Shown: piece by piece, positions 2,330-59,780 of the stretch
Layout: each line of letters starts with the position of its first letter
Numbering within the stretch: the stretch's first letter is position 1
Assembly (NCBI GenBank): GCA_039023545.1
Contig: JBCHKQ010000001.1
Location: 620,001 to 684,000, forward strand
Direction of reading: 5' to 3'
Origin: Spirochaetia bacterium 38H-sp
GTDB taxonomy: Bacteria > Spirochaetota > Spirochaetia > Winmispirales > Winmispiraceae
DNA: 64,000 bases
Program-made: the position numbers and the translations under genes
Notes under the pieces: generated by a model
The model's input: only the letters and a program-made list of their open reading frames with translations
What the model was told of the DNA's origin: nothing
Database searches by the model: none

Positions 2330-2473
2330 ACCGAACGTCGACTCTGGGTCATATGTAGTAAAGTGGCAAAATGGACGCAGAGACTCCTGCCTGCGGTATA
2401 TATTTAGACTGTCTTCTTTGTTGGTTCTCCGCCAGGAGGCAGCGCAGGCCGCGTAGCGGGTTGTGCGTTCGGT
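2330..2473. repeat. ACCGAAC element 1 (inverted pair of units)
   Basis: This full element has an A-type unit reading rightward (2330-2397) and a B-type unit reading leftward (about 2430-2473), bounded by ACCGAACG and its reverse complement CGTTCGGT. The A unit has a stem CTCTG.GTC (2342-2350) against GAC.CAGAG (2374-2382), a loop with GGCA, and a tail CCTGCCTGCGG. The B unit hairpin includes CCGC-GTA-GCGG (about 2449-2459). It lies between two plus-strand genes, and no gene is evident in it. Confidence 0.75.
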
Positions 2474-2561
2474 GTAAAAATATATTGCTGTCAAAAGTGA
2501 CGGAACTTGTAAAAAGCTTTTATATATTATATTCTGTATACAGAATATAATAGGAGATATC

Positions 2562-3476
2562 ATGGAAAACAGCATACACTATCCATTTTTGTTATCGCTT
2601 TTTGTAATACTCACAGGTTATGTTCTTACCAGACTCAAGGTTTTGTCGCTTGAGCTTGGCAAGGATATATCCAGACTGATAGTCAATGTCACATTACCGG
2701 CAGTGATTCTAAATACATTAACAACTATGGAGCTGGTAGGGTCTCTTTTTTTCTTTCCTCTTATATGCATAGCTGCATCGGTGATAATATTGCCTTTTGC
2801 AAAGCTTTTTTTTAATAGGCTTTCTCTGGCGGATAGGGGAAATGCTTATCTTACGGTTATTGGCTACAATATAGGTTTGTTTGCCTATCCTCTGATAGAA
2901 GGGCTGTATGGTAAGGATGGACTTGCTGGTGTTGCCATGTTTGATGTGGGAAACGCTTTTGTAGCTTTTGGTCTTCTTTATCTGGTGGCAAGACATTTCT
3001 CACCACAGGAGGATAAGAAGATAACTCCTGTGCGGATTTTAAAAGCTCTGCTTTACTCCATACCGTTTATGAGTTATGTGATAGGACTTTCTCTTAATAT
3101 TGCCGGGCTTTCTTTTCCATCTATAATTGGTGATGCCATAGCTCTAATCGCACGGGCAAATAATGCTCTTGTTCTTTTAGTGCTTGGGATGACTCTCAGA
3201 TTTACGTTTCCCAAAAAGACGGCAAAGGTTTTTGCAAGGGCTCTTGCTGTAAGATACGGTCTTGGGCTTGTTCTGGGTTTTGCTGCTTTCTTTCTTCTAC
3301 CTTTTGATATCTTTTACAGAAGGATATTGCTCATAGGTCTTCTTCTGCCTGCTCCTCTTGTTATAATCCCCTATGCGGCAGAAAACGAGCTGGATATGGA
3401 GTTTGCAGGAACTTATGCTAATGCTTCTGTTGTGATAAGTTTTGCTATCATGTGGCTTATAGCAAGCATCACATAG
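2562..3476 (+). CDS. AEC (auxin efflux carrier) family transporter, 304 aa
   Basis: This is a polytopic inner-membrane protein with about ten hydrophobic segments across its length, the usual size (about 300 aa) and layout of the AEC family. Bacterial members export or import small organic acids or amino acids; the substrate cannot be read here. Supporting features are the N-terminal LSRLIVNVTLPAVI-like stretch (residues 37-52) and the paired five-helix halves separated by a charged loop near residues 148-158. The start is fixed by AGGAGA 6 nt before ATG. The gene is monocistronic and ends in a hairpin shared with metH. Confidence 0.85.
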   Translation: MENSIHYPFLLSLFVILTGYVLTRLKVLSLELGKDISRLIVNVTLPAVILNTLTTMELVGSLFFFPLICIAASVIILPFAKLFFNRLSLADRGNAYLTVIGYNIGLFAYPLIEGLYGKDGLAGVAMFDVGNAFVAFGLLYLVARHFSPQEDKKITPVRILKALLYSIPFMSYVIGLSLNIAGLSFPSIIGDAIALIARANNALVLLVLGMTLRFTFPKKTAKVFARALAVRYGLGLVLGFAAFFLLPFDIFYRRILLIGLLLPAPLVIIPYAAENELDMEFAGTYANASVVISFAIMWLIASIT

Positions 3477-3499
3477 AAGGCTGCCTATAGCAGCCTTCT
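3475..3499. terminator. Shared hairpin between the AEC gene and metH
   Basis: AGAAGGCTGC (3475-3484), the loop CTATA and GCAGCCTTCT (3490-3499) form a perfect 10-bp stem in the 37-bp gap between two convergent genes. The flanking T-tracts are weak, so it is a plausible bidirectional terminator rather than a textbook one. Confidence 0.7.
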
Positions 3500-3513
3500 A
3501 TATCCTGTTGTAA

Positions 3514-6500
3514 TCAGCTTTCTGGTAGAATACTTCGCAGCCATTTTTCTGCTTCCGTAGTGCTCATATTGCGTCTTGTTGCGTAGTCAGCAAGCTGTTC
3601 TTCTGTTATGCGGCCTACTGCAAAATAATGGGAATCGGGATGGGCAAAGTAAAATCCGCTGACAGATGAAGAGGGCATCATCATATAGCTTTCTGTGAGT
3701 CTTATGCCCGTACGCTTCTGAGCATCCGTGATTTTCCATATATCTGCTTTGAGCGTATGGTCGGGACAGGGGGGGTAACCTGGAGCAGGTCTTATGCCTT
3801 GATAGCTTTCTGCCAGAGTTTCCTGAGGACTGAGTTTTTCATCCGGAGCATATCCCCAGAGCTTTTTTCTCACGAGCTGATGCAAAGCTTCTGCTGCGGC
3901 TTCCGCGAGTCTGTCTCCAAGGATGTTTACGAGTATATCCGAGTATTGGTCTGCATCTGTGTGCTCCTTTATAAAGGATTCTAGGTCTCTCCCGGCACCT
4001 GTTACAAAAAAGCCCATATAATCCCTCATACCGCTTTTTTCCTGTGGAAGAAAGTCCGACAGGCTAAGGTAATAAGGGGTTTTTTTCTTTTCTCTCTGTT
4101 GTCTGAGCATAGGAATTCTGTAGAATTCTTTATCTGTTTCCCAGTCATAGAGAAGGATATCATCGTTTTCTGTAGAGCATGCAGGATAGAAGGCAACAGC
4201 TGCATCTATTCTTATGTTTTCTTCCATTATATCCAGCATTCTGTTGGCATCGTCGTACAGTTTCTTTGCTTCTTCCCCCTTTTCTGCATCAGATAGGATG
4301 TCGGGAAACTTTCCCGGCATTTCCCATGCAATGTAAAAGAATCTCCAGTCTATGTATGGCCGCACTTCTTTTACAGAGAGCCTCACTGTCTGTGCTCCTT
4401 TTATCACAGGTTCTACAGGCTTATAATCCTTCCAATTCGGGATAAAGCGCTTTTTTCTTGCTTCCGACAAAGAAATATAGTTAAAATTTTTTATCTGTCC
4501 CAGTTTTTGTTCTCTTATTTTTTTCTGCTTTTCTCTATTTTCTGCGATAAAGCTTTCTTTCTTGTCCGAGCTTAGGGCGCTCATAACCTTTACTGCATCT
4601 GATGCATCGGTAGAATGTATGACAGGTCCAGAGTATTCTGGTGCTATCTTGAGTGCAGTATGCGTGGGACTGGTTGCAGCTCCACCTACCATGAGGGGCA
4701 GCTTCTTGCCCCTCCTTTCCATCTCTTCTGCTACTATTCTCATCTCTTCCAAAGAAGGTGTAATGAGTCCGGAAAGCCCTATGACATCCGCACCTTCTTT
4801 GTCTGCAGTTTCAAGGATATCCTGCATTGGTACCATAACTCCCAAGTCTATTACCCTATAATTGTTGCACTCAAGGACCACTTTTACTATGTTCTTTCCT
4901 ATATCGTGCACATCACCTTTTACTGTTGCTATCACCATGCTTGCTTTATGCTGCCCGCCTGTTTTTGCATTTTCTTTCTTTATAAGGGGGGTGAGAAAGT
5001 CAACTGCATTTTTCATAACCCGTGCGGTCTTTACGACCTGAGGCAAAAACATTTTGCCTTCGCCAAAAAGCCTTCCAACTTCGTTCATTCCTTTCATAAG
5101 AGGGCCTTCTATCACGGCAAGTGCTGAGCCTAGTCTTTTGTGTGCTTCCGGGAGGTCTTCTTCTAGATGACTGCTTATTCCCTTGAGAAGTGCATATGTC
5201 AAGCGTTCTTCTACGTCCAGCTCTCTCCACTTATTGGCATCTCCTCCAGAAGAGGACGCTCCTGATAAACCTTCGGCAGCCTCGAGCAGAAGTTCTGTTG
5301 CTTCTGGATTCCTGTTAAAAAGCAGGTCTTCTATTAGCTTGCGCACGTTTTCCGGCACCTCTTCATATGGAAGCATGCGTGCTGGGTTTACTATGCCCAT
5401 ATCAAGTCCTGCTTTTACCGCATGGTAGAGAAATACAGAATGCATTGCATCTCTAAGCGGATTGTTGCCTCTGAAGGAAAAAGATATATTGCTTACTCCG
5501 CCGGATGTCTTTGCATAGGGAAGATTTTCTTTAATCCACTTTACGGCTTCAAGGAAATCCACACCATAATTGGCGTGTTCTGCCATGCCTGTTCCTATTG
5601 CAAATATGTTAGCATCTATAACAATATCTTCTGGTGCTATTCCTGCCTTAGTTGTAAGCAGTCTGTAAGAACGTTCTGCAATCTCCATGCGTCTCTCCAG
5701 GCTGTCTGCCTGTCCGTTCTCGTCAAAGCACATAACAAGAACAGCTGCTCCCATACGCTTTACAAAGCGTGCTTTCCTTATAAACTCTTCCTCGCCGTCT
5801 TTGAGACTTATGGAGTTTACTATACCTTTACCCTGTAAGCACATAAGACCTGCTTCTATCACCTTCCAGTTGGAAGAATCCAGCATGATAGGTACTCTGC
5901 TTATCTCAGGCTCTGAGGCAATCAGGTTGAGAAAGTGCTTCATTGCAGAGGGTGCATCTATAAGCGGATCATCAACGTTGATATCTATTATCTGAGCCCC
6001 TGCCTCTACCTGTGCCCTTGCAATCTCAAGAGCTGTATCCCAGTCAGAATTTGCAATGCATTTTTTAAAACGTGCAGAACCTGCCACATTGGTTCTCTCC
6101 CCCACGTTGACAAAGAGGCTCTCCCTGCTTACACGCAAAACCTCAAGCCCGGTAAAGACAGTCTCATGTTTTTTGTCAGGAATCCTGCGTGGATTTATGT
6201 CCGATAGAGCATCAACAATTGCCTTTATATGCTCCGGTGTTGTACCGCAACAACCACCTACTATGTTGAGAAGCCCTTCCCTGGCATACATAGCTAGTGT
6301 TTTTGCCATGATTTCCGGTCCCTGGTCGTACTCTCCCATAGCATTGGGAAGCCCGGCATTGGGATGCACGCTTACTGCGCATGGTGCATGCGGGGTTATG
6401 GACATAAGATGTGGCCTCATCATATCCGGGCCAAAGGCGCAGTTAAAACCTACGGATACAGGCTCTGCATGGAGCACAGAAAAAAGAAAAGCTTCTGCTG

Positions 6501-7191
6501 TTTGTCCTGCCAGCAGCCTGCCTGCAGCATCCGTGATAGTTGCAGAGAGCATAACAGGCACATCCTTTCCAGACTCCTCGCGGTATCTCATAAGAGCGGA
6601 TAATGCTGCCTTTGCATTGAGTGTATCAAATATTGTTTCGACCAGTATGATATCAGCGCCACCATCTATGAGCCCGCATATGGAATTATGGTAGTCCTCT
6701 TCCAGTGTCTCAAAATCCAGAGCCCTAAAAGCCGGATCCTGAACATTGGGGGACAGAGAAAGGGTTTTATTGGTTGGGCCCAGCACTCCTGCCACAAAAC
6801 GCGGTTTATCCGGTGTCTTTTTGCAGAACTCGTCGGCCACGCGTCTTGCAAGACGTGCAGCCTCAAGGTTGAGCCTATAGGCAAGCTCCTCTGTTGCATA
6901 ATCTGCCTGGCTAGTACGGGTAGAATTAAAGGTATTGGTCTCTATTATATCCGCTCCGGCCTCAAGATAAGCCCTGTGAACACCCTCGATTATATCCGGT
7001 CGCGTCAGAGTGAGCATATCGTGATTGCCCTTGAGATTGATGGGCCTTCCTTTTGCATCCTTTTTATCAAAACCGGCAAACTCCTCGCCGCGGTAGTCGG
7101 CTTCTTCCAGCTTATGCCTCTGGAGCATAGTCCCCATGGCGCCGTCCAGAAAAAGAATCCGCTCGCTGAGAAGCTCTTTTATGTCAGCCAT
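3514..7191 (-). CDS. metH: Cobalamin-dependent methionine synthase, 1225 aa
   Basis: MetH transfers the methyl group of 5-methyltetrahydrofolate to homocysteine through methylcobalamin, in the cytosol. All modules are present. The homocysteine domain (about 1-330) has zinc ligands Cys251, Cys314 and Cys315 (GGCCGT). The pterin domain (about 350-620) follows. The cobalamin module has a cap near 640-735 and DVHDIGKN at 760-767, with His762 as the lower cobalt ligand. A C-terminal activation domain ends the protein, with the RLTESYMMMPSSSVSG region that binds S-adenosylmethionine. The length equals the E. coli enzyme (1227 aa). The start is supported by GGAGGAAGG next to ATG. Only 75 bp separate it from a repeat element, and I see no cobalamin or SAM riboswitch there. 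Confidence 0.97.
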   Translation of the reverse strand: MADIKELLSERILFLDGAMGTMLQRHKLEEADYRGEEFAGFDKKDAKGRPINLKGNHDMLTLTRPDIIEGVHRAYLEAGADIIETNTFNSTRTSQADYATEELAYRLNLEAARLARRVADEFCKKTPDKPRFVAGVLGPTNKTLSLSPNVQDPAFRALDFETLEEDYHNSICGLIDGGADIILVETIFDTLNAKAALSALMRYREESGKDVPVMLSATITDAAGRLLAGQTAEAFLFSVLHAEPVSVGFNCAFGPDMMRPHLMSITPHAPCAVSVHPNAGLPNAMGEYDQGPEIMAKTLAMYAREGLLNIVGGCCGTTPEHIKAIVDALSDINPRRIPDKKHETVFTGLEVLRVSRESLFVNVGERTNVAGSARFKKCIANSDWDTALEIARAQVEAGAQIIDINVDDPLIDAPSAMKHFLNLIASEPEISRVPIMLDSSNWKVIEAGLMCLQGKGIVNSISLKDGEEEFIRKARFVKRMGAAVLVMCFDENGQADSLERRMEIAERSYRLLTTKAGIAPEDIVIDANIFAIGTGMAEHANYGVDFLEAVKWIKENLPYAKTSGGVSNISFSFRGNNPLRDAMHSVFLYHAVKAGLDMGIVNPARMLPYEEVPENVRKLIEDLLFNRNPEATELLLEAAEGLSGASSSGGDANKWRELDVEERLTYALLKGISSHLEEDLPEAHKRLGSALAVIEGPLMKGMNEVGRLFGEGKMFLPQVVKTARVMKNAVDFLTPLIKKENAKTGGQHKASMVIATVKGDVHDIGKNIVKVVLECNNYRVIDLGVMVPMQDILETADKEGADVIGLSGLITPSLEEMRIVAEEMERRGKKLPLMVGGAATSPTHTALKIAPEYSGPVIHSTDASDAVKVMSALSSDKKESFIAENREKQKKIREQKLGQIKNFNYISLSEARKKRFIPNWKDYKPVEPVIKGAQTVRLSVKEVRPYIDWRFFYIAWEMPGKFPDILSDAEKGEEAKKLYDDANRMLDIMEENIRIDAAVAFYPACSTENDDILLYDWETDKEFYRIPMLRQQREKKKTPYYLSLSDFLPQEKSGMRDYMGFFVTGAGRDLESFIKEHTDADQYSDILVNILGDRLAEAAAEALHQLVRKKLWGYAPDEKLSPQETLAESYQGIRPAPGYPPCPDHTLKADIWKITDAQKRTGIRLTESYMMMPSSSVSGFYFAHPDSHYFAVGRITEEQLADYATRRNMSTTEAEKWLRSILPES

Positions 7192-7266
7192 CCTTCCTCC
7201 AAAACATTAGCAATTTTATATAGTATACATATTAAAAGCGGGATAGAACAGTATTTTATAAAATGT

Positions 7267-7416
7267 GCCGAACGCAGTAATAGCGTCCGTCCTTTGTAAA
7301 GCAGGGCAGAATGGCGCTCTTACTGCTGCCTGCGGCTCATATGGTGTAGAGTTTTCTTGTGCTTCTTCTTTTGGCCGGAGGCAGTGCGATGGCGCTTGCG
7401 TCATCGCACGTTCGGT
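7267..7416. repeat. ACCGAAC element 2 (inverted pair of units)
   Basis: The A unit (7267-7336, starting GCCGAACG) has a 12-position stem, GCAGTAATAGCG (7274-7285) against CGCTCTTACTGC (7315-7326), with 11 pairs. Its loop carries GGCAG (7305-7309) and the stem is followed by CTGCC (7326-7330) and TGCGGC. The B unit reads leftward (about 7373-7416) with a perfect stem GTGCGATG/CATCGCAC directly before GTTCGGT. The element sits in the divergent gap between metH and the gene at 7463, so it cannot serve only as a terminator. Confidence 0.8.
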
Positions 7417-7424
7417 ATGACAAA

Positions 7425-7453: not shown

Positions 7454-7462
7454 CGTACGATT

Positions 7463-8638: not shown

Positions 8639-8666
8639 ATTCTGACACAATAATCATAGACAGATT

Positions 8667-10194: not shown

Positions 10195-10209
10195 AGTATT
10201 TTTATCGTC

Positions 10210-13008: not shown

Positions 13009-13158
13009 ACCGAACGCACAGCCCGCTGCGCGGTCAGTGCTGCCTCCAGGCAAAGTGGGGCAGAGGATTTCCCGCTTTTTTGCTTAGTGTGTGCCGCAGG
13101 CAGGAGGGAGCGCGCCTTCTTACTGCTTTGCCGTATAGGTGCGCTCCTGACGTTCGGT
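13009..13158. repeat. ACCGAAC element 3 (inverted pair, opposite orientation)
   Basis: Here the B unit comes first and reads rightward (13009 to about 13065), with stem arms GCAC..CCGC / GCGG..GTGC and the tail CTGCCTCC. The A unit reads leftward (about 13092-13158), with stem GGAGCGC (13107-13113) against GCGCTCC (13141-13147). Elements 1, 2 and 6 have the reverse order. It begins 9 nt after the proB stop codon and lies between two plus-strand genes. Confidence 0.75.
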
Positions 13159-14325: not shown

Positions 14326-14370
14326 CGCCAGGAGGCAGGGGATGGGCGCACAGCGCCATCCCCGTTCGGT
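14326..14370 (-). repeat. ACCGAAC element 4 (single B-type unit)
   Basis: Read on the minus strand, this is ACCGAAC, then a stem GGGGATGGCGC with a 3-nt loop and GCGCCCATCCCC (one bulged base), then CTGCCTCCTGGCG. Only half of the paired element is present. It lies between convergent genes (the LacI-family gene and acnA), just after the 3' end of acnA. Confidence 0.75.
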
Positions 14371-17062: not shown

Positions 17063-17130
17063 ACCGAACGTCGTCCCTGCGCCCAAAGTTGCAAAACAGG
17101 CAGAAAGGCGCAGTTACTCCTGCCTACGGC
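17063..17130 (+). repeat. ACCGAAC element 5 (single A-type unit)
   Basis: ACCGAACG (17063-17070) is followed by stem CTGCGCC (17077-17083) against GGCGCAG (17107-17113). The loop contains GGCAG (17099-17103), and CTGCC (17120-17124) with TACGGC follows. It lies in the divergent gap between acnA and the DUF554 gene, where a terminator would have no purpose. Confidence 0.75.
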
Positions 17131-21284: not shown

Positions 21285-22316
21285 ATGAAAAAAGCACTTA
21301 TAACAGGTATTACAGGACAGGACGGTTCTTATCTTGCAGAACTACTGTTGGAGAAAGGCTATGAGGTACACGGCCTTATAAGGCGTTCTTCTGTTTTTAC
21401 AACAGAAAGAATAGAGCACTTATATCATGACCCTCATGATAAGAATAAAAAAGTACCACTATATTTACACTATTGCGATATGACTGATTCCAGTAGTCTT
21501 AACAGGGTTTTAGAAAAAATAAGACCGAACGAGATATACAATCTTGCGGCTCAGTCCCATGTCAAGGTGTCTTTTGAAGTACCGGAGTATACCGCAGAAG
21601 TCGATGCTCTGGGTGTTCTCAGATTGTTGGATGCAATAAAAGAGACAGAAATACCATGCAGATTTTATCAGGCTTCCACATCAGAGCTGTATGGTAAGGT
21701 GCAGGAAATACCGCAGAGGGAAACCACGCCTTTTTATCCGCGTTCTCCCTATGCTGCAGCCAAGCTGTATGCATACTGGATAACCGTAAATTACAGAGAG
21801 GCGTATAACCTATATGCCTGTAACGGCATACTCTTTAACCACGAGTCGCCCAGAAGGGGCAGGACCTTTGTTACAAAAAAAATAACAACAGCAGTTGCAC
21901 GTATAAAAAAGGGAAAGCAGGAAAAACTGTATCTTGGTAATCTTGATGCCAAGAGAGACTGGGGGTACGCACCGGATTATGTATATGGTATGTGGCTAAT
22001 GCTGCAGCAGGATAACCCAGACGACTATGTGCTTGCAACCGGCGAGACACATACTGTGAGGGAATTTTGTGAGAAGGCTTTTATGCGAGCTGGCTTTGAG
22101 CTTGTATGGGAAGGAGCAGGGGTAGAAGAAAAAGGTATAGATAAAAATACAGGAAAGGTTCTTATTGAAATAGACCCAAGATATTTTAGGCCTACAGAAG
22201 TGGATTTGCTTATAGGAGATGCTTCCAAGGCCAGAGAGAAATTGGGATGGGAGCCTGGGGTAGGTTTTTCTGATCTTGTTGATATCATGGTGGATTATGA
22301 TCTTGAGAACGAATAG
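21285..22316 (+). CDS. gmd: GDP-mannose 4,6-dehydratase, 343 aa
   Basis: Gmd makes GDP-4-keto-6-deoxymannose from GDP-mannose with bound NADP. It shows the Rossmann motif [13 protein letters not shown] at the N-terminus, RRSS for NADP phosphate binding, the catalytic STSELYG and SPYAAAK segments, and NHESPRRG near 190. Length matches E. coli Gmd less its C-terminal extension. GDP-mannose-forming genes (manB/manC) are not in this window and must lie elsewhere. Confidence 0.96.
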
Positions 22317-33851: not shown

Positions 33852-35004
33852 AAGATTAAAGATATTGATGATATCATATGAGTTTCCGCCTGTTGTTTCT
33901 GGCGGTATAGGCAAGTTGACTTATGATAAGTATCAAGCTTATAAAGAGTCAGGACATGATATTGTTCTGATAGCTCCTGTATCTCATAACAGAAAAAAAG
34001 GTCAGTTATATATTCCCGCTAAAGGTAATATATTAAAATTTTTCTTGACATTTTTTTATTCTTTTTTTTCTGTGATGATAAGAAAGCCAGATATTATTTA
34101 TGCCTTATCAGGTACCTATGTGGGATTTGTATCTTTTATAATTTCCAAAATATTTTCTATCCCCTATGTGGTTCTTGCTCATGGTAATGAATTTATAAGA
34201 TTTTATAATAAATCTGATATAAGAAAGGTGTTAAATATTATATATAATAATTCTCTGATTGTTCTGGCAGTGAGCAGCTTTACAAAAAAGCTCTTAATTG
34301 ATTTTGGTGTTGATAAAAATAAAATAGAGGTTGTTAATAACTATATTGATAGTGATAATTGGATTGTTCCTGCTGCAAATCAGATTGTTGAGGTTAGAGA
34401 AAAATATGATCTGAAACCTCAGGATTTTGTATTGATTACTGTTTCTAGGCTTGATAAGCGGAAAGGGCATGATAAAATTATAAAGGCGTTAGCATTAATG
34501 ATATTGAATTTCCCTGAGTTCCGTGGAAGGATAAAGTATATTATTGTAGGGAATGGCAAAGAATACGACAGACTTAAAAACATGGTATGTGAATGTAATC
34601 TTAATGATAGTGTGTTGTTTTTTGGCTATGTGCCTTATCGTGACTTATCTCTGTTATATGCGATTTCCGATTTATTTGTTATGCCAAGTAGTTTCCTACG
34701 TAATGATGGGAGTGTAGAGGGGTTCGGTCTTTCTTATATAGAAGCTGCGATTTACGGTCTTCCTTCTGTCGCAGGAATAGAGAGTGGGGCCATCGATATA
34801 ATAGATGATGATAAAACAGGTTTTCTTGTCAATCCTGATGATATATATAAAATACAAGAGGTGTTGTTGTATTGTGTTAAAAATAAAGAGAGAGTAAAAG
34901 ACATGGGTGTTGCTGCAAGAAATAGTGTTTTATCCAGGTTTTCTAAGGATAAGTTATATCCTAGAGAATTATCTCTTATCTTAAGATGGCTTGATAATAT
35001 GTAA
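33823..35004 (+). CDS. Glycosyltransferase family 4 (GT-B), up to 393 aa
   Basis: SYEFPPVVSGGIGKLTYD is typical of the GT4 acceptor domain, VSRLDKRKGHD begins the donor domain near 207, and EGFGLSYIE is the EX7E motif. The start is uncertain: the ATG at 33823 overlaps the previous gene by 29 nt, and ATG 33868 (MISYEFPP) would remove the overlap but cut the first strand short. The end overlaps the next gene by one base. Confidence 0.85.
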   Translation: MMRLFLNPNRRLKILMISYEFPPVVSGGIGKLTYDKYQAYKESGHDIVLIAPVSHNRKKGQLYIPAKGNILKFFLTFFYSFFSVMIRKPDIIYALSGTYVGFVSFIISKIFSIPYVVLAHGNEFIRFYNKSDIRKVLNIIYNNSLIVLAVSSFTKKLLIDFGVDKNKIEVVNNYIDSDNWIVPAANQIVEVREKYDLKPQDFVLITVSRLDKRKGHDKIIKALALMILNFPEFRGRIKYIIVGNGKEYDRLKNMVCECNLNDSVLFFGYVPYRDLSLLYAISDLFVMPSSFLRNDGSVEGFGLSYIEAAIYGLPSVAGIESGAIDIIDDDKTGFLVNPDDIYKIQEVLLYCVKNKERVKDMGVAARNSVLSRFSKDKLYPRELSLILRWLDNM

Positions 35005-44163: not shown

Positions 44164-44304
44164 ACCGAACGGACTGCCCGCATCTCATATAGCAAAAACA
44201 GGCAGAAAATAATGCAGGCAGTCCTGCCTGCGGCGCAAAATAACCTGCTTTTCTTCTTTGCTGTAGGCAGGCATAGCGCGCTCTGCGCGTCTATGCCGTT
44301 CGGT
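44164..44304. repeat. ACCGAAC element 6 (inverted pair of units)
   Basis: The A unit (44164-44234) has the clearest structure: stem GGACTGCCCGCAT (44171-44183) against ATGCAGGCAGTCC (44212-44224), with 12 of 13 pairs. The loop carries GGCAG (44201-44205), and CTGCC (44224-44228) with TGCGGC follows. The B unit reads leftward (about 44270-44304) with stem GGCATAG.CGCG against CGCG.CTATGCC. It lies between mnmA and hom, both on the minus strand. Confidence 0.8.
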
Positions 44305-46719: not shown

Positions 46720-46722
46720 ATC

Positions 46723-47706: not shown

Positions 47707-49746
47707 ATGTCCCAGAGTTTATTGCTTTTGTTTCCGCTTGGAGCTGCGATTCTCGCGCTTCTTGTGGCATTTGCTCGATATTTCTGGATAAAAAAACAGG
47801 AAGCCGGAGCAGAAAATCTCAGAGAAATTTCTAAAGCTATCAGAGACGGTGCTATGGCGTTTCTGATACGTGAGTACAAGGTAATTGTTATTTTTGCCAT
47901 AGCGGTTGTTCTTATTTTTTCTTTTCTTGAACAGGGAGCTGAGCGGCTTGTTGCCGTATCTTTTGTAGTGGGTGCTCTTATGTCAGCTCTCGCAGGGTTT
48001 CTTGGTATGCGTGCCGCAACACTTGCCAATGTGAGAACAGCTAATGCGGCAAAAAAAGGGCTTGCTGAGGCTCTGCTTGTTGCTTTTAATGGTGGAAGTG
48101 TTATGGGCCTTGGTGTTACCGGTTTTGGTATGCTGGGGCTTTCTGGGCTTTTTCTTATTTATGGCTCGGTGCTTGGTACGGATATCAATGTACTCAATCA
48201 GCTTGTAATACCTATTCTTTCTGGTTACTCCATGGGTGCAAGCTCCATTGCGCTTTTTGCTCGTGTAGGTGGTGGTATTTTTACCAAGGGTGCCGATGTA
48301 GGTGCAGACCTCGTAGGTAAGGTAGAGGCTGGAATCCCTGAGGATGATCCGCGCAACCCTGCTGTTATTGCCGATAATGTAGGTGATAATGTAGGTGATG
48401 TTGCAGGTCTGGGGTCTGACCTCACGGAGTCCTATATAGGTGCTGTAATCGGAGCTGTGGTTTTGGGCGGTGCGCTTAATTCTTACGTCCTTGCGGTTTT
48501 GCCTCTTCTTGTGGCTGCAGTGGGAATAGTTTCTTCCATAATAGGTACTTTCTTTGTAAGAACCAAGGAAGGTGGACATCCCCAGGCTGCTCTCAATACC
48601 GGAAGCTTTGTTGCTGCAGGAGTTATGCTTGTGGCAACCTTGCCTGTTCTCAATCTGCTTATGCCATCCGGCTCTATTGCCCACCTTACACCTTTTGGTA
48701 TCTTCCTTTCTATGGTATCTGGTCTTATATCTGGTGTTCTTGTTGGAATCGTTACAGAGATGTACACAGGTGATGGCAAGAGAGCAGTTATAGCTGTTGC
48801 TAAGTCATCCATGACAGGAACCGCAACCAATATCATTGCTGGAATAGAAGTGGGAATGCAGTCTACAGGAATTCCTGTTATAATACTTTCTCTTGCAACA
48901 TATCTTTCTTACCTTTCTGGCGGACTTTATGGCATAGCAATAGCAGCGGTTGGAATGCTTGCAACTGTAGGCTATCAGGTATCTGTAGATGCGTACGGTC
49001 CCATTGCGGACAATGCCGGCGGGCTTGCTGAGATGGCCAAGCTTGATCCGGAGGTAAGAATGCGTACAGACAAGCTGGATGCTGTAGGAAACACTACCGC
49101 GGCAATAGGAAAAGGCTTTGCCATAGGTTCTGCAGTTTTTACGGCTCTTTCCCTATTTATCGCTTTTGAAGAGGCCTCAGGTCTCAAGGGTATAGACGTA
49201 ACAGAGCCCAAGGTTATAGTTGGACTTCTTATGGGAGCCATGCTTCCCTATGTCTTTTCTTCTTTTGTAATCGGTGCTGTTGGACGTGCAGCCTTTGCTA
49301 TGATAGAAGAGGTTCGCAGACAGTTCCACGAAATCAAGGGCATACTGGAAGGCAAAGAAAAGCCTGATTATGTTGCTTGTGTGGATATTGCAACCAAGGC
49401 GGCTATCCGCGAGATGATAATCCCTGGACTTTCTGCTGTTGTTATTCCTGTTCTTGTTGGATACCTTGGCGGAGCAGAGATGCTTGGAGGCGTTCTTGTA
49501 GGAGCCATGGTTTCTGCGGTTATGCTTGCCCTCTTTATGGCAAACTCCGGTGGTGCATGGGATAACGCTAAGAAGCACATAGAAGGCGGTGCGTTTGGTG
49601 GTAAGGGTTCTGAGGCACATAAGGCAGCTGTTATAGGAGATACGGTAGGTGATCCCTTTAAAGACACAGCAGGTCCTGCAATGGACATAGTCATCAAGCT
49701 TATGAGCGTTGTAGCCCTTGTTATAGCGCCCAACCTCAAAATGTAA
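47707..49746 (+). CDS. hppA: Membrane ion-pumping pyrophosphatase, 679 aa
   Basis: This enzyme hydrolyses pyrophosphate and pumps H+ or Na+ across the inner membrane. It has about 16 hydrophobic helices. The pyrophosphate-binding motif [18 protein letters not shown] (about 197-214) and the acidic motif DNVGDNVGD are intact, and the C-terminal acidic region [13 protein letters not shown] is present. GNTTAA near residue 461 has Ala where potassium-independent enzymes have Lys, so this is the potassium-dependent subclass. That subclass contains both Na+ and H+ pumps, and the ion cannot be settled here. Confidence 0.95.
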
Positions 49747-49756: not shown

Positions 49757-49799
49757 ACCGAACGGGGCTGCAAGCTAAAGCAAGCAGCCCCTTTTTTTT
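49757..49799 (+). terminator. ACCGAAC-linked intrinsic terminator of hppA (element 7)
   Basis: ACCGAAC is directly followed by GGGGCTGC (49764-49771), a 12-nt loop, GCAGCCCC (49784-49791) and eight T residues. It begins 10 nt after the hppA stop codon. It shares the ACCGAAC box with the repeat family but not the GGCAG loop or the CTGCC tail. Confidence 0.93.
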
Positions 49800-51357: not shown

Positions 51358-51394
51358 AAAAAAAGCCGTACCGCGGTGCGGTACGGCGTTCGGT
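51358..51394 (-). terminator. ACCGAAC-linked intrinsic terminator of the SPT-like gene (element 8)
   Basis: Read on the minus strand: ACCGAAC, then GCCGTACCGC, a 3-nt loop, GCGGTACGGC and seven T residues. The 10-bp stem is perfect. It lies 19 nt after the stop of the SPT-like gene and also close behind the chorismate mutase gene coming from the other side. Confidence 0.92.
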
Positions 51395-53557: not shown

Positions 53558-53646
53558 AAGCCAATACTAGCATGTAAAAAAAAGTATATCCAGTACAAAA
53601 AACAGAGTTTCTTTTCACATTTTAACCTGTTTTTTTTCAAAACAAA

Positions 53647-53686
53647 CCGAACGCAGCCCTGCCGATAAGGCAGAGCTGCTTTTTTG
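53647..53686 (+). terminator. ACCGAAC-linked terminator-like hairpin (element 9)
   Basis: ACCGAAC (53647-53653) is followed by GCAGCCCTGCC, loop GATAA, GGCAGAGCTGC (one mismatch) and six T residues on the plus strand. Both neighbours are on the minus strand, so this orientation would stop only antisense transcription. Read on the minus strand, the stem is followed by a T-rich GTTCGGTTTGTTTTG, which could end the TRAP operon. Confidence 0.7.
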
Positions 53687-53710
53687 TAAACAGATTGAGA
53701 AGTACAATGC

Positions 53711-55594
53711 TCATCCACCTATGATAGATGGAAGCCATGTGGAAAGAGCAGGAATATAAGTGATTAGTAACACAGTTATAATTAGCACAATAAAAAATGG
53801 AATAACATTTTTATAAATATCAAGAAGGTCGGCATTAAATCTGTAGGAAGCTATAAATAGATTGAGCCCTACTGGAGGTGTGAGATATCCTACTGCCAGG
53901 TTAGCAAGAAAAAGTATTCCCATATGCACGGGATTTATAGAGTAGAGCTCTGCCATAGGCACTATGAGAGGAGCCACTATCATAATTGCAGAAAAAATAT
54001 CCATGAGACAGCCTGTTATAAGAAGCACAACCGTTACCAGAAGCAAAAAAATAAAAGGAGAAGATATGTGAGCTTTCATCCAGGCTGTAAGAATAAGAGG
54101 AAACTCGCTGTCCACAATATAAAAGGACAGAGCCTTGGCAGAACCCAGAAGAAGCAATATTCCGCCTATGATTGGGATGGATTTTAATATTACAGCCGGG
54201 AGCCTTTTAAAAGGTATTTCTTTTTTTATAAAGACCTCGATAAACATGACATAAAGAGCAGAAAAAGCAGCTGTCTCCGTAAGATTAAAAAGCCCGGAGA
54301 AAAAACCAGCAATAATAAAAACAGGGAGAAGACTTTCCCACACTACATCGTAAAACGCAAGAAGCTTATCCTTTGCAGACAGTTTGGGGAGATCTGGCGT
54401 TTTCTTTTTTTCGCGTATTGCTCTTATCAGTGTGTATACAACCAATGAGCCAACCATAAGAAAGCCTGGGATCAATCCTCCTATGAAAAGGTCTTTGATA
54501 CTTATCTGAGCGACAGAACCATAGATTATGATGGGTAGGCTCGGAGGGAAAAGTAGCCCTATTGTTCCAGAGGCCGTGAGAAGGCCATATGTAAATTTCT
54601 TTGAATATTCTCCGCTTTTTATCATAACATATGAGAGAACGCCCCCCAGAGCAAGGATAGCAACCCCCGATGCACCTGTAAAAGTGGTAAAAAATGCAGA
54701 AACAAGTATGGCTATGATAGCCATACTGCCTGGTAGGTTGCCTATAATACTTTTAAAAAATTTTATAAACCTATCTCCGGCCTTACTCTCGGACAAAACA
54801 AAACCTGTCAGAGTAAAAAGTGCTATAGGCGGAATAGGTATATCAGTAAGGAGGCTGTATATCTCATCAGTAACAACCTCTGCCGTACCATAGTTTCCCA
54901 TGAGAAGAAACATTGCAATGGTACCTATTGCTATAAAAAGGGGAAGCCCTGCAAAGGCAAAAAAGATTATCAGAAGAATTATCAGCCATCCTGCAGACCT
55001 GGCAATATTGGCTATAAAGTCTGCAGTATCAAGCATAAAGACAGGCGGATCCTGAGAGAAGGAAAAGAGCAGATTATTTACAGAAGACAGAGAAATGAAA
55101 ACAGCAAGAACAAAAGAAAGTATAAAAAGGAAAAGCTTTATAGTTCTTTTTGCTTTAATACCCTGTAAAAAATATATGGAGATGACAAAAAATCCCACAG
55201 GCATAACCCAGGTTATAAAACGAGTAGGGATAAAGCCTACTCTTGTAACCTCCTCAAAAGCTATAAAAAAGTGGCTCACTGATATTATTGTAAATACAAG
55301 AGAAAAAAAACTGCTCAGAAAGTATATTGTGTTGAGCAGATATTCTCTGGCATTACCTGTAAGCAGGTTTTCCAATAATGCTATGGACAAATGCTGTCTT
55401 TTTTTTGCGGCATACATTGCGCCAAAAAAAGCAACAAGAAGCACAAGATGTTTTATATAATCGTAGCTTCCTGGTATCCCTGTAGAAAAGATACTCCTTA
55501 ACAACATCTCTATAATAGGGAGGCTTGCAAGTATAAGAAGAAATACAGAAGCGATAAGACCATCTATGCTTCTGAAAATCTTATTTCTACTCAT
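53711..55594 (-). CDS. TRAP transporter fused small and large permease (DctQ-DctM), 627 aa
   Basis: The first about 165 residues form the four-helix DctQ domain (GSYDYIKHLVLLVAFFGAMYAAKK, then FIPTRFITWVMPVG). The rest is the DctM domain with about 12 helices (GFVLSESKAGDRF, TGASGVAILALGG, GLLFPPSLPIIIYG, ATSYLTPPVGLN-like YLTPPVGLN near 577). It uses an ion gradient to import a substrate delivered by DctP, usually an organic acid. Its start overlaps the stop of the dctP gene by 4 nt. Substrate unknown. Confidence 0.92.
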   Translation of the reverse strand: MSRNKIFRSIDGLIASVFLLILASLPIIEMLLRSIFSTGIPGSYDYIKHLVLLVAFFGAMYAAKKRQHLSIALLENLLTGNAREYLLNTIYFLSSFFSLVFTIISVSHFFIAFEEVTRVGFIPTRFITWVMPVGFFVISIYFLQGIKAKRTIKLFLFILSFVLAVFISLSSVNNLLFSFSQDPPVFMLDTADFIANIARSAGWLIILLIIFFAFAGLPLFIAIGTIAMFLLMGNYGTAEVVTDEIYSLLTDIPIPPIALFTLTGFVLSESKAGDRFIKFFKSIIGNLPGSMAIIAILVSAFFTTFTGASGVAILALGGVLSYVMIKSGEYSKKFTYGLLTASGTIGLLFPPSLPIIIYGSVAQISIKDLFIGGLIPGFLMVGSLVVYTLIRAIREKKKTPDLPKLSAKDKLLAFYDVVWESLLPVFIIAGFFSGLFNLTETAAFSALYVMFIEVFIKKEIPFKRLPAVILKSIPIIGGILLLLGSAKALSFYIVDSEFPLILTAWMKAHISSPFIFLLLVTVVLLITGCLMDIFSAIMIVAPLIVPMAELYSINPVHMGILFLANLAVGYLTPPVGLNLFIASYRFNADLLDIYKNVIPFFIVLIITVLLITYIPALSTWLPSIIGG

Positions 55595-56586
55595 TTCTTT
55601 TCCCTGTATTCTTTGATAACAGCAAGAACCTCTTCGTAAAGTTCTCTGGAAAATAGGTTGTCTGCTAATCTGTCAAGGCCTTTTTTTGCAAGGCTTTGCC
55701 ACTCTTGTATCTCTTTCTCAGTTGCTTCGTGGACTATCAGGCCGTTTTGTTTCATTATTTCTATTGCTTTTTTATCCACCTCTATTACCTTATCATTAAG
55801 GTCTTTTGCGACTTCAGAGGCAGCCTTTATAAAATCTTCTCTGTATTCTTGAGGAATCCTGTTCCATGTTCTTTTATCTATGACCAGTCCTCCCACAACA
55901 GGGGCAAATCTGAGAGTATTATAGTGGTTTGCAATGCCAAACCACTGCAGGGTAGCTGCAAGCACGGGAGGAGCATAAGCCGCATCCACCATGCCTGTCT
56001 GTAGAGCAGAAAGAACCTCGTTTTGTGGGATTGGTACTACATTAAAACCAAACTCTTTAAAAGTCTGATTCATCTCTGGCTCATCGGGATAGCTTCTCAA
56101 TTTGAGAGCCCTTAACTCCTCCGGACTGTATGCTGGTGTTCTTGTAAAAAAAGATACCCATCCTGCCAATTGCCAGGCTACAGGAACCATACCCTTATCT
56201 TCAAGAAGTTTGCTCCACCTTGGACCCATCCTTTCTAGAAGATATATTACTTCCTCATCTGTTTGAGTTATTAGAGGAAGTCCCATTGTCATAAGCTCCG
56301 GTTCTATCTTATTGAGACCAACAGAACTGAGTACAGCGCCCTGAAGTTGTCCTAGTCTCATCTTTCTTATGACATCTATCTCATCCCCGGCTATGCCTCC
56401 CGGATATATCTTTACCACAATCTTTCCATCAGATATCTCATACCATTTTTTTGCTATCTGTCGCATAGCATCGTCCCAAGGAGTATTTGCAGGCGCAAGA
56501 CTTGCTATCTTTATGGTAAGCCCCCATGAAGGGAGTAACATAACAAACAGGAGAAGAAAGACAATCGAATACTTTATTCTTTTCAT
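55591..56586 (-). CDS. TRAP transporter substrate-binding protein (DctP family), 331 aa
   Basis: A signal peptide (MKRIKYSIVFLLLFVMLLPSWG) leads to a periplasmic binding protein opening IKIASLAPANTPWDDAM. KIYPGGIAGDEIDVIRKMRLGQLQ is the typical DctP lobe-1 motif, and LKLRSYPDEPEMNQTFKEFG near 145-165 contains the conserved Arg (LRSYP) that binds a substrate carboxylate. Length is normal. It is the middle gene of the TatT-DctP-DctQM operon, 12 nt after the TatT-like gene. Confidence 0.93.
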   Translation of the reverse strand: MKRIKYSIVFLLLFVMLLPSWGLTIKIASLAPANTPWDDAMRQIAKKWYEISDGKIVVKIYPGGIAGDEIDVIRKMRLGQLQGAVLSSVGLNKIEPELMTMGLPLITQTDEEVIYLLERMGPRWSKLLEDKGMVPVAWQLAGWVSFFTRTPAYSPEELRALKLRSYPDEPEMNQTFKEFGFNVVPIPQNEVLSALQTGMVDAAYAPPVLAATLQWFGIANHYNTLRFAPVVGGLVIDKRTWNRIPQEYREDFIKAASEVAKDLNDKVIEVDKKAIEIMKQNGLIVHEATEKEIQEWQSLAKKGLDRLADNLFSRELYEEVLAVIKEYREKK

Positions 56587-56598
56587 ATGAGAAACTCC

Positions 56599-57600
56599 TT
56601 ATATAAATATATCATCAACAGTCTTTATCAGCCATATAGCTGTTTCTCTTGCAACCTCATTCTCCAGTCTGTATTCTGGATACTTTTCCGTATCAATTTC
56701 CAGCGCTTTTTTTAATATAGAAATATATCCCTCTCTATCCTGCAGAGGGACCATCACAGCCTGTGCATATGCAATGTAGGGGGAGAGCTTTTTGCCTTCA
56801 TCAAGTGTTATTGCTTGTTTAAAGTGGAATTCTATCAATTCTCTCGTGGATTTGCCTTCCATTCTGTTTTTTCTGTAGTATTCTACGAGCCATTTTCTTA
56901 CTATGTCATCTTCTTGAGGAATGGCTCTCCACCACAGAGATACGTCCAGACTTCCATAAAGTCGTATAAACATCTCATGTATTGCACCATCTGAATAATA
57001 CGGGTTGAGCCTGAGCACAGCTGTGCATGCTCCCACTGCTTGGGGGATTTTTATGCTCATTGCAGGATCAGACGGCTGTATTGCTATTGCTGCAAGCAGA
57101 CTTGTGCCCAGCCAGTAAAGATAGTCCACATCATCTCTATCTATATTTTCAAAAGCAAGTTCTAGATTTTGAGCATCCCATGCCTTAGAAAAGCCTTTGT
57201 GTCTTATTTCCATCGATTTCAGAGCATATCTGTATGCTCTGAGATAAAAAGCCTTTGCTCTGGCAAACTCTTTCTGCTGTTTATCGTATTCATTTATCTC
57301 TAGCCTTTTGGCCGGTGCTTCGACAAAGGCATTGGAATAAGAAGTGAAACCCTGTGCAAGCATGAGCAGCAGCTGGGTGTTCTGAGGATCTTGCTGCAAT
57401 AAAGTCTCGTACAACTTAAGAGCAAACGGTAAACTTTGTTTTGCAAACTCAGGGTCTTCCTCTGTGAGAAAAGGAGACGGCTCTCCTGTTGCCGACATAG
57501 AAGAAGTAAGGCTATCTATGGCAAGTTGCTTTATAGAACAAGAAGAAAAAATTATTACACTTACTACGATTAAAAAAACAAGGCTTTTTTTATCCATCAT
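56599..57600 (-). CDS. TatT-like TPR lipoprotein associated with the TRAP system, 333 aa
   Basis: A lipoprotein signal ends in FSSCSIKQ, with the lipobox Cys near residue 21. The mature protein is all-helical with TPR-like repeats (ALKLYETLLQQDPQNTQLLLMLAQG; FYLRAYRYALKSMEIR). This is the layout of Treponema pallidum TatT (Tp0956), which forms trimers with its DctP partner TatP and may pass hydrophobic ligands to it. I chose the ATG at 57600, because the longer frame from 57639 only adds an Ile/Tyr-rich stretch from the AT repeat. No ribosome binding site is visible. It is the first gene of the operon. Confidence 0.87.
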   Translation of the reverse strand: MMDKKSLVFLIVVSVIIFSSCSIKQLAIDSLTSSMSATGEPSPFLTEEDPEFAKQSLPFALKLYETLLQQDPQNTQLLLMLAQGFTSYSNAFVEAPAKRLEINEYDKQQKEFARAKAFYLRAYRYALKSMEIRHKGFSKAWDAQNLELAFENIDRDDVDYLYWLGTSLLAAIAIQPSDPAMSIKIPQAVGACTAVLRLNPYYSDGAIHEMFIRLYGSLDVSLWWRAIPQEDDIVRKWLVEYYRKNRMEGKSTRELIEFHFKQAITLDEGKKLSPYIAYAQAVMVPLQDREGYISILKKALEIDTEKYPEYRLENEVARETAIWLIKTVDDIFI

Positions 57601-57706
57601 ATATATATATATACTGATATATATTTTTGATATTAGCAAGATTTACAGAAGACTTTTATTAATAATAAGTTTTGCAAGTGATATGATTTATTGTTTAATA
57701 AAGATA

Positions 57707-57778
57707 AGGCGCCGGCCGGATTCGAACCGGCGAATGAAGGCTTTGCAGGCCTCTCCCTTACCACTTGGGTACGGCGCC
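57707..57778 (-). tRNA. tRNA-Cys (anticodon GCA)
   Basis: The cloverleaf is complete: acceptor stem GGCGCCG/CGGCGCC, anticodon arm GAGGC-CTGCAAA-GCCTT with anticodon GCA, T arm CCGGTTCGAATCCGG, and discriminator U73, which is the identity base of tRNA-Cys. The 3' CCA is not encoded and must be added. Confidence 0.97.
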
Positions 57779-58031
57779 AATTTGTAGAAGTAAATTACTA
57801 AAAAATGTTTTTTTTGTCCAGTCGGTAGAGGGAAAAGCCGCAAATATGCTTTATCCTGAAGGCAGGTTAAGAAAACTTAGCAGATACCGTGCTGTTTTGC
57901 CTTATGCTTGGTTTTTAGATAAAGTAAAGAAATATAACATCAAGTCCTGCTATATCTGTATACTGTTGGCTTGTGCATTAGAAATAAAATTGCGGCTATG
58001 GGTTTTGAAAAAGTAGTGAGGAAAAAAAACA

Positions 58032-58070
58032 ATGCAAACGCTTGCATGATTAACAATACGGGTTTATAAT
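58032..58070 (+). promoter_or_regulatory. Phosphorylase promoter with a LacI-type operator over the -35 box
   Basis: TTGCAT (58042-58047), a 17-nt spacer and a perfect TATAAT (58065-58070) form a strong promoter. ATGCAAACGCTTGCAT (58032-58047) fits the AANCGNTT core of LacI/GalR-family operators with palindromic ATGCAA/TTGCAT arms, and its right arm is the -35 box, so a bound repressor would block RNA polymerase. The remainder of the 316-bp gap 57779-58094 contains no supported gene; an 83-codon frame there starts inside the tRNA. Confidence 0.72.
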
Positions 58071-58094
58071 ATAAAAAAACTTTTTGGAGGAACT

Positions 58095-59705
58095 ATGACA
58101 GATAAGATGCCCAGTGTGGCCTATTTTTGTATGGAATACGGATTGGACACATCCTTTAAAATCTATGCTGGAGGATTGGGAATCCTTGCTGGAGATTACC
58201 TTAAAGGGGCAAAAGATACCGGTTATCCCATAGTAGGTATAGGAATAAAGTGGAAGCAGGGATACACTGACCAGCTTATAGACGAGGAAGGAAGACCTTT
58301 CGACTCGTATAAAAATTATCACTACGATTTTCTAAAAGATACAGGAGTAACGGTAAAAGTAAAGATAAGACAGAGGGACGTATACTGCAAAGTTTGGCTT
58401 GTTGATGAGTTTGGCAACGCTCCTCTATATCTTCTGGATACGGACATCCCGCAGAACGAGGATCGCTGGATATGCGGACAGCTTTATGGCTGGTTTGGAG
58501 AAGAGCGCATAGCACAGGAAATGGTACTAGGAATAGCAGGCGTGAGAGCACTCAGATCGCTTGGCATAAAAACGGATGTCTATCACTTTAACGAAGGGCA
58601 TGCTGTCTTTGCCGCATTTGAGCTGATACGAGAAAAAATGCAGGAAGGACTTTCCTTTGAAGAAGCCGTAAGAAAAACACGGGAAGAAGTGGTTTTCACT
58701 ACGCATACACCCATAAAGGAAGGCAACGAATCCCATTACATAGACAGACTAATGTATATGGGAGCTAACAACGGACTTACCGTAGAGCAGCTTGTAAAAC
58801 TTGGTGGAGCCCCCTTTAATATGACAGTAGCCGCACTAAGATTATCAAGAATTTCCAATGCAGTAGCACAACTGCACTGTGAAACCTCCAACAAAATGTG
58901 GCAAGACATAAAAGACCGCTCAGAAATAATAGGCATAACCAACGCAATACACCTGCCCACCTGGGTTGACAGCAGAATGCTGGATGCAGCGGAAGGTAAA
59001 GGCGATCTGTGGGAAACCCACATGGACAACAAAAGAAAACTCATAGAATTTGTAAAAGAAAGAACAAGCATAGAACTTGACGAGAACGCCCTCCTCATAG
59101 GCTTTTCAAGAAGAGCTGCACCCTACAAAAGAAGCGATCTCATCTTTACAGACACAAACATAATAGAACCACTGCTAAAAGAAAGAAAAATTCAGATAGT
59201 ATTCTCAGGAAAAGCACACCCTCTTGATGACACAGGCAAAAAAATAGTAGAAAATATAGTAAAAATAGGTAAAAAATATCCGCAATCTGTAGTTTTCCTG
59301 GAAAACTACGACATGACAATCGGAAAAATGCTCACTCGCGGCTCTGACATCTGGCTCAATAACCCCCGCAGACCCAAAGAAGCCAGCGGAACATCCGGCA
59401 TGAAAGCAGCGATGAACGGCGTACTCAACCTCAGCACACTTGATGGCTGGTGGCCGGAAGCATGCCGCCACGGAGAAAACGGCTGGCAATTTGGTGACGG
59501 CTTTGTAAGCCCCAACGAAGCAGAACACGATGCACATGACGTAAAAGCACTCTATAAAGTCCTCCTGGAAGAAGTCCTGCCAACATACTATGATAACAGG
59601 AAAAAATGGAAGGAAATGATGAAAAACAGCATAACAAGCACCAGGAAATACTTTGCAGTAGAAAGAATGCTGCAGGAATACTATGAAAAAATGTATATAA
59701 AATAA
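58095..59705 (+). CDS. Alpha-glucan phosphorylase, short form (GT35), 536 aa
   Basis: This enzyme releases glucose-1-phosphate from glycogen or maltodextrin in the cytosol. It is the short GlgP branch (about 550 aa; E. coli enzymes have about 800). It opens VAYFCMEYGLDTSFKIYAGGLGILAGDYLK, with HFNEGHAVFA near 154, TTHTPIKEGNE near 200 and the PLP region EASGTSGMKAAMNG near 433, which holds the cofactor lysine. GGAGG precedes the ATG. The gene is monocistronic and probably repressed through the operator at 58032; the alpha-amylase gene nearby would supply substrate. Confidence 0.93.
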   Translation: MTDKMPSVAYFCMEYGLDTSFKIYAGGLGILAGDYLKGAKDTGYPIVGIGIKWKQGYTDQLIDEEGRPFDSYKNYHYDFLKDTGVTVKVKIRQRDVYCKVWLVDEFGNAPLYLLDTDIPQNEDRWICGQLYGWFGEERIAQEMVLGIAGVRALRSLGIKTDVYHFNEGHAVFAAFELIREKMQEGLSFEEAVRKTREEVVFTTHTPIKEGNESHYIDRLMYMGANNGLTVEQLVKLGGAPFNMTVAALRLSRISNAVAQLHCETSNKMWQDIKDRSEIIGITNAIHLPTWVDSRMLDAAEGKGDLWETHMDNKRKLIEFVKERTSIELDENALLIGFSRRAAPYKRSDLIFTDTNIIEPLLKERKIQIVFSGKAHPLDDTGKKIVENIVKIGKKYPQSVVFLENYDMTIGKMLTRGSDIWLNNPRRPKEASGTSGMKAAMNGVLNLSTLDGWWPEACRHGENGWQFGDGFVSPNEAEHDAHDVKALYKVLLEEVLPTYYDNRKKWKEMMKNSITSTRKYFAVERMLQEYYEKMYIK

Positions 59706-59711
59706 AAAAAT

Positions 59712-59780
59712 ACCGAACGGCCCTGACGCAGCCGAATAAAGCTTCCCCGGCAGTACGGCTGCTCAGGGCCTGCCCTTGGC
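59712..59780 (+). repeat. ACCGAAC element 10 (single A-type unit)
   Basis: ACCGAAC is followed by a 15-bp stem with one bulge: GGCCCTGA.GCAGCCG (59719-59734) against CGGCTGCTCAGGGCC (59756-59770). The loop carries GGCAG (59749-59753), and CTGCC (59770-59774) follows the stem. It starts 6 nt after the phosphorylase stop and could also act as a terminator, though no T-run follows. Confidence 0.78.

Follow-up and report, generated by a model that had tools for sequence, protein, structure and literature searches.

Among the dispersed hairpin repeats described in bacteria, those closest to the elements considered here are the GTAG and CGTC families of repetitive extragenic palindromic (REP) sequences. 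Both form inverted dimers with tags outside (HH) as well as heterodimers, and the CGTC repeats are reported as lacking a dedicated transposase and as present in Spirochaetes (PMC3733652). The transposase TnpA_REP is strand specific and uses the GTAG motif plus irregularities of the stem or loop (PMC8266576), the hairpins of REPINs undergo compensatory changes (PMC3116915), REP singlets are regarded as remnants in decay (PMC3116915, PMC8049555) and an automatic REP survey includes S. thermophila DSM 6578 (PMC12306157). The present work concerns a window of 64,000 nucleotides in the draft genome of Spirochaetia bacterium 38H-sp (G000:C1:620001-684000, the genome counting 2,346,581 bases in 25 contigs and being 99.87% complete), where an earlier note had described ten intergenic sites sharing the heptamer ACCGAAC directly 5' of a hairpin. 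These sites belong to a genome-wide family of hairpins headed by the tag ACCGAACG, the stems of which mostly differ from copy to copy, remain complementary and carry a mismatch bias that points to selection on the strand complementary to the tag.

Abundance and anatomy of the tagged hairpins

The tag ACCGAACG occurs 246 times on the forward and 244 times on the reverse strand, i.e. 490 exact copies across 2.35 Mb, compared with 50+33 for the reversed pattern used as a control, so that the dispersed family proposed from the ten sites does extend over the whole genome. In C1:220001-884000, it is the top enriched intergenic 8-mer, with 111 occurrences vs. 0.70 expected in 56,262 intergenic bases. 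The paired form has 19 matches genome-wide vs. 0 for the reversed pattern, and the tag followed by the tail described below, searched as ACCGAACGN20-50TGCCTNCGGC, has 79+67 matches vs. 0 for its reversed control. Two samples from about half of the genome were considered, namely 184 tags from C1 and other stretches, and a replicate of 100 tags from C2:224001-644000 (about 400 kb of new sequence); the tag heads a classified hairpin, mostly intergenic, in 263/284 cases. Once 13 short tag-containing open reading frames (ORFs) are removed, just 10/134 tags fall outside gaps, gene positions in this and all other gap or orientation counts coming from a simple longest-ORF script rather than a curated annotation. 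A DNA uptake signal sequence was rejected on account of this scarcity of tags within genes, and a replication-strand signal as tag orientation, judged by eye, does not follow GC skew. The sign of this skew flips on C1 from the 40-kb bin at 340 kb to that at 380 kb, a likely replication origin or terminus.

The unit can also be recovered from its other end. A tag-blind search of 1.08 Mb, where the pattern is a stem directly followed by TGCCTNYGGC, returned 121 units, with an exact tag at the foot of 97 of them and at most two mismatches in 119, and 19 of the 24 tag changes fall at tag positions 1 and 2. Against control positions away from tags, the stem score of 110/134 units exceeds the 95th percentile and that of 53/134 the 99th. 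Decayed tags are rare between genes, with 37 one-mismatch words vs. 20 expected by chance, compared with 111 exact tags (C1 only).

Regarding anatomy, class N units (119/184) have a stem and the tail TGCCTNCGGCA in exact or slightly altered form, class T units (55/184) combine a stem with a T-run, and 10/184 follow neither pattern; in the C2 replicate of 100 tags, these figures are 75, 14 and 11, respectively. The few errors of the automatic class assignment (e.g. misplaced stem ends at C1 679712 and 797473) are kept in the counts. The share of class T differs between C1:220001-884000 (45/134 tags) and C2:224001-644000 (14/100). The lengths of class N units are bimodal, which separates S units, with a short loop and bodies of 19-33 nt, from L units, with a long A-rich loop and bodies of 39-54 nt, both ending in TGCCTNCGGCA. 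An A stands two bases upstream of the tag in 93-98% of S, L and T units. The loops of L units average 23 nt with 51% A, and words such as GCAAA and GGCAG exceed their frequency in shuffles. AAAGCAAAA-like and AGGCAG words are also common in these loops and above shuffles (e.g. window 17084-17106), and GGCAG, present in 12/100 L loops vs. 1.1 in shuffled ones, could pair with CTGCC of the tail. L units further exhibit a GTC/TCC foot in 27/62 cases and 16/38 in the replicate (43/100 together), the GTC foot being rare elsewhere (1/57 S and 1/55 T units). Few units have an A/T pair at stem position 2 (6/57 S, 2/62 L and 3/55 T), position 1 being G.C by construction of this count.

Covariation of the stems and asymmetry between strands

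The earlier note had stated that the stems vary yet stay complementary, and this is borne out on a much larger set. Over stem positions 2-9, counted from the base, Watson-Crick pairing within S and L units amounts to 68-94%, vs. 27-34% for arms exchanged between copies. A subset of 16 among the 57 S units, all of one length, shows two-sided changes at 10/11 stem pairs, and its covariation score reaches 0.574 vs. 0.179 shuffled (0/500 shuffles as high) and at most 0.153 when slid; the covariance model of L units was built from 21 hand-picked of 39 units and comprises 10 pairs only. The five-prime arms (10 nt) are distinct in 84/94 S, 84/100 L and 69/69 T units, with some subfamilies, as 4.3% of S arm pairs are identical at 8/10 or more positions vs. 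0.5% in shuffles. Near-intact tags next to stems mostly unlike each other suggest that the units may now be held, for the most part, by purifying selection.

Isolated stem mismatches flanked by Watson-Crick pairs are strongly asymmetric. Read on the tag strand, 174 units show A.C 45 times and G.T 7 times (p=7e-8), and the C2 replicate, for which the expectation had been recorded ahead of the data, shows A.C 18 times and G.T 4 times (p=0.004; 89 classified of 100 new tags), unclassified tags (10/184 and 11/100) being excluded from both counts. Where the tag strand has an A.C mismatch, its complement carries a G.T wobble. By the same count in the same genome, 50 T-run hairpins without a tag show G.T 7 and A.C 2, vs. 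G.T 1 and A.C 8 for 44 T-run hairpins with a tag (Fisher p=0.015). The stability predicted with DNA parameters also favours the complementary strand (S 56 vs. 15, L 68 vs. 30, T 40 vs. 12), and RNA parameters do likewise for S, L and T stem-loops (p 6e-5 to 7e-11 over both sets). The GTC/TCC foot of L units, which gives T.C/C.T on the tag strand, gives tandem G.A/A.G on the complementary strand. Besides, the tail can fold as a mini-hairpin whose loop on the complementary strand is GNA in 66/91 and 42/65 (replicate) intact tails, non-intact tails (28/119 and 10/75) being excluded. C-GNA-G loops form very stable DNA mini-hairpins. Taken alone and with RNA parameters, this mini-hairpin prefers the complementary strand (34 vs. 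8).

Pairs, related copies and relationship to known systems

Whenever neighbouring units lie on opposite strands, their tags are outside, as in 23 pairs of C1 (82-174 bp apart) and 17/17 neighbours under 250 bp in C2; the tags-inside arrangement was never encountered among opposite-strand neighbours. Of the C1 neighbour pairs closer than 600 bp, 23/24 are inverted with tags outward and the remaining one is same-strand with one tag stemless. Pairs of two class N units are S+L heterodimers with outward tags in 32/34 cases, and the length across all 34 is 129-174 bp. The likeness of the inverted pairs to REP dimers, pointed out in the earlier note, is thus supported well beyond the window. In terms of stem pairing, single S units score 0.853 and paired ones 0.769 (p=0.026), which is opposite to a decay of singles, and the corresponding values for L units are 0.831 and 0.878 (p=0.37); among exact-tag units, to which these values are restricted, single units are no more decayed than paired ones. 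In addition, 11 single units of C1 do have a partner tag carrying one mismatch.

A comparison of copies over 60 nt upstream of the tag and 98 nt from the tag uncovered related ones, namely C1:797473 and 805757 (80% over 106 nt), C1:502787 and 637063 (80% over 90 nt), and C1:495791 and 547906 (94% over 51 nt). The best alignments start within about 8 nt of the tag and the similarity stops near the tag upstream, weaker alignments extending further into the A-rich upstream flank. Some copies being clearly related, with alignments that start near the tag, the units must have been copied to other locations.

The transposase suspected in the earlier note, i.e. of the RAYT or IS200/IS605 type with these ends, was not found: the genome has no match to PF01797 (Y1, RAYT) at E 0.001, in a search that was positive in 5/14 control genomes, and none to PF07282 (TnpB zinc ribbon). 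A reverse transcriptase or group II intron was rejected for the lack of any PF00078 (RVT_1) match in the genome, as was a DDE transposase of one family for the lack of any PF01609 (DDE_Tnp_1) match. These four family searches thus yield no partner transposase of the sort expected for an insertion-sequence MITE. Judging from these four families only, the genome may hold few insertion sequences. Three matches to Phage_integrase were obtained, one XerD-like, one XerC-like and one short fragment with a stop; the XerD/XerC-like tyrosine recombinases score 121-122 bits with TIGR02249, for which the integron cut-off is 265, and the tyrosine-recombinase-like fragment with its one stop lies at G000:C7:36939-37046. 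Among 1084 ORFs of the fetched stretches, just two gene pairs share at least 60% identity. As for an autonomous copy, with a gene between outward tags, 27 intervals of 0.3-3.5 kb are candidates by their arrangement, and the idea was rejected from 10 proteins scanned in 9 of these intervals, nine of the proteins being ordinary and one unmatched.

Outside this genome, the tag plus tail gives one match in each of 7 among 393 other genomes of the class, 4 of these 7 also matching the reversed control once, and these seven single matches are about chance. Under strict filters, the covariance model of S units finds at least 104 copies in this genome, from 105 scored candidates, and none in any of 59 relatives, so the search advised in the earlier note also supports the family. 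In 200 kb from each of the two genomes of the same taxonomic family, the tag is not enriched, with 6 copies apiece at 62% GC. Viral carriage was rejected, as the 113 tag plus tail stretches in 2.9 million viral contigs, one each in the 80 listed, are about chance by our own arithmetic, and a plasmid search with 8 kb gave no match. The family was not found described in the literature searched, and a text search for ACCGAACG gave nothing related among the titles listed.

Compared with GTAG REPs and REPINs, the family is alike in its short tagged intergenic hairpins in hundreds of copies, in its inverted dimers with tags outside and its heterodimers of differing loops (PMC3733652), in the compensatory changes within hairpins (PMC3116915) and, presumably, in a strand-specific single-strand recognition (PMC8266576). 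It is unlike them in that the hairpin foot is ACCGAACG and not GTAG, no Y1 transposase is matched in this genome, the stems are mostly different between copies, and the tag would be 3' of the hairpin on the strand presumed to be recognised; moreover, singles prevail here (145 vs. 63) and are not decayed, whereas REP singlets are said to decay (PMC3116915, PMC8049555). Although it works like REP/REPIN, the family falls outside that group on four counts, namely its tag, the transposase, how frequent its singlets are and how little they decay; what is new lies in stems that vary freely and in a signature specific to one strand. CGTC REPs share with it the lack of a dedicated transposase, being reported in five phyla including Spirochaetes, and a prevalence of HH dimers with frequent heterodimers, and their stems are given as 8-9 bp with nearly always two A/T pairs first, loops of 4-5 nt and CCA for most tails (PMC3733652). 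L units with a GTC foot do read ...AACGTC ahead of the stem but, unlike CGTC REPs, the present units rarely have A/T at stem position 2, the L loops are much longer (mean 23 nt) and the GTC foot is near-absent in S and T units.

Integron attC sites are also folded single strands held by shape with a variable sequence, and the ends of the present units finish in AAC or start with GTT, with one mismatch to the attC consensus RYYYAAC/GTTRRRY. Unlike integrons, no cassette array was seen and most units have no partner end; attC sites were rejected since the full tyrosine recombinases best match XerD/XerC, with bit scores well below the integron cut-off. As for intrinsic terminators, T units resemble them as a GC-rich stem with a T-run, whereas S and L units have no T-run and the mismatch bias is opposite to that of headless T-run hairpins.

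Coming back to the window, its ten sites are all real, each being ACCGAAC or GTTCGGT beside a hairpin, with small corrections only: the site at 7267 starts with GCCGAACG and not ACCGAAC, and the one placed at 53647 really starts at 53646. The four inverted pairs stand and each is made of one L and one S unit, with L on the plus and S on the minus strand at 2330-2473 (tag at 2330 and tag end at 2473), 7267-7416 (the variant tag on the L unit, tag end of the S unit at 7416) and 44164-44304, and with S on the plus and L on the minus strand at 13009-13158. The other sites are lone units, namely an S unit in a convergent gap at 14326-14370 and a T unit in a convergent gap at 51358-51394, both with the tag present and the strand corrected to minus, and four on the plus strand: an L unit with the GTC/TCC foot in a divergent gap at 17063-17130, a T unit at 49757-49799 (stem then T-run, 10 bp past the stop of a H+-pyrophosphatase gene), a T unit at 53646-53686 opposed in orientation to both neighbouring genes, and an L-like unit with a long stem at 59712-59780, for which the automatic stem end was misplaced (C1 679712). 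For the membrane H+-pyrophosphatase (window 47707-49746), the best relatives in genome_contigs come from Calditrichia and Chitinispirillaceae (62-63%), spirochaetes not exceeding 57%, in a comparison from which near relatives may be left out. Two extra heptamer matches, at 21524 (+), without a good stem, and at 34722 (-), are both inside long ORFs. Rfam at gathering threshold gives one tRNA only in the window.

Possible explanations and their meaning

We lean, with some reserve, towards dispersed tagged hairpin repeats of a REP/REPIN-like kind, whose selected form would be folded single-stranded DNA complementary to ACCGAACG, probably read by a putative protein via the tag and the hairpin shape and not the stem sequence. 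On this strand, the tag would be 5'-CGTTCGGT and the unit would comprise, from 5' to 3', the mini-hairpin TGCC-GNA-GGCA (an A-run in class T), a stem mostly of 8-14 bp and then CGTTCGGTNT. That a protein reads tag and fold is only inferred, no transposase or candidate protein having been found, and the family may have spread as a non-autonomous single-strand element.

Several other explanations must be weighed. That the units are RNA elements, i.e. transcribed gene-end hairpins acting in termination, mRNA stabilisation or processing, in which a protein would bind a box formed by ACCGAAC or its complement, is unlikely. It would account for the T-run directly after the stem in 55/184 and 14/100 tags, for tags often located 0-15 bp past a stop codon and for convergent gaps being the richest in units (59/117 vs. 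86/297 co-directional and 32/135 divergent), and the RNA parameters too favour the complementary strand. Yet divergent gaps contain units too, the mismatch bias is reversed in headless T-run hairpins, and single units of co-directional gaps are evenly oriented (36 same and 32 opposite, p=0.72; 13 and 9 for single T units). The asymmetry also remains whichever strand is read, G.T:A.C on the tag strand being 3:20 with transcription of the other strand, 2:8 in convergent gaps and 1:10 in divergent gaps. This even orientation, and an asymmetry that keeps to the complementary strand regardless of transcription, favour DNA rather than RNA as the constrained form, which is evidence for and not proof of it, and antisense transcription could still matter. 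The alternative left in the earlier note between RNA and single-stranded DNA is therefore narrowed towards DNA, which stays unproven. Its statement that the units are not simply terminators agrees with this even orientation and with the exact tag being present in only 34/84 detected T-run hairpins, which also indicates that a terminator can do without the tag; it has to be qualified for class T (69/263 classified units), where the T-run is like that of an intrinsic terminator.

Arm-to-arm copying, as in quasipalindrome correction, is a further candidate: template switching at replication would keep the arms complementary with no selection on structure, and the covariation would be a mutational product. 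Two-sided changes without G.T intermediates are indeed the rule (one one-sided cell in helix 1), but such a process predicts no preference between A.C and G.T, whereas a marked bias was seen and then seen again in the replicate. It should also tend to remove the mismatched GTC/TCC foot, which 43/100 L units retain, and it leaves the intact tag and tail unexplained, which makes it very unlikely. REPIN-like transposons still mobile via a transposase missed by the family searches are quite unlikely as well. The S+L heterodimers with tags outward, the related copies with a similarity stopping near the tag and the arm subfamilies of S units speak for them; against them stand the lack of any Y1_Tnp, TnpB zinc ribbon, RVT_1 or DDE_Tnp_1 match, the near absence of similar gene pairs among the ORFs of the fetched stretches and the fact that most arms are distinct.

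Folded single-stranded DNA, in turn, has a number of observations weighing against it. No transposase or candidate binding protein was found in the families searched, and there is no relative of the genus among the searched genomes, hence no empty-site or insertion comparison. Single units dominate (145 single vs. 63 paired units, exact tags only), unlike REPINs. Where the tag strand is the one read, G.T:A.C is 5:12, which is weak alone, and most T-run hairpins do without an exact tag. The orientation of T-run hairpins, 14:7 when tagged vs. 18:3 when headless, does not differ significantly (p=0.28). Folding energy cannot tell DNA from RNA, as both parameter sets favour the same strand, and the mini-hairpin alone has no significant preference with DNA parameters (34 vs. 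22, p=0.07). Finally, when mismatches were counted in much the same way in the GTAG REPs of E. coli, the recognised strand of which is known, G.T and A.C came out at 6 each (42 automatic hits in 450 kb, at least 2 spurious). The asymmetry therefore has yet to prove itself as a sign of recognition by a transposase; these REP copies are few in sequence type, so this test may lack power and is not a positive control.

Going one step further, it is conceivable, if rather doubtful, that the family constitutes a genome-wide single-stranded DNA shape code, where hundreds of hairpins, for the most part unrelated in their stems, would each be selected at their own locus on one strand only and read by a putative protein seeing CGTTCGGT beside any stable stem. 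If true, such a code would be the DNA counterpart of a structured RNA family, independent of transcription and more than a transposon scar. On a practical level, the count of A.C vs. G.T mismatches offers a simple test for which strand of a hairpin family is selected, and is applicable to other families. The usual account of REP-like repeats invokes a transposase able to recognise their sequence. In the present family, only the tag, the tail and the ability of one strand to fold are conserved, the arms being largely free, and the genome has no transposase from the families searched, which makes this spirochaete a clean case for asking if folded single-stranded DNA can serve bacteria as a durable signal in the genome.

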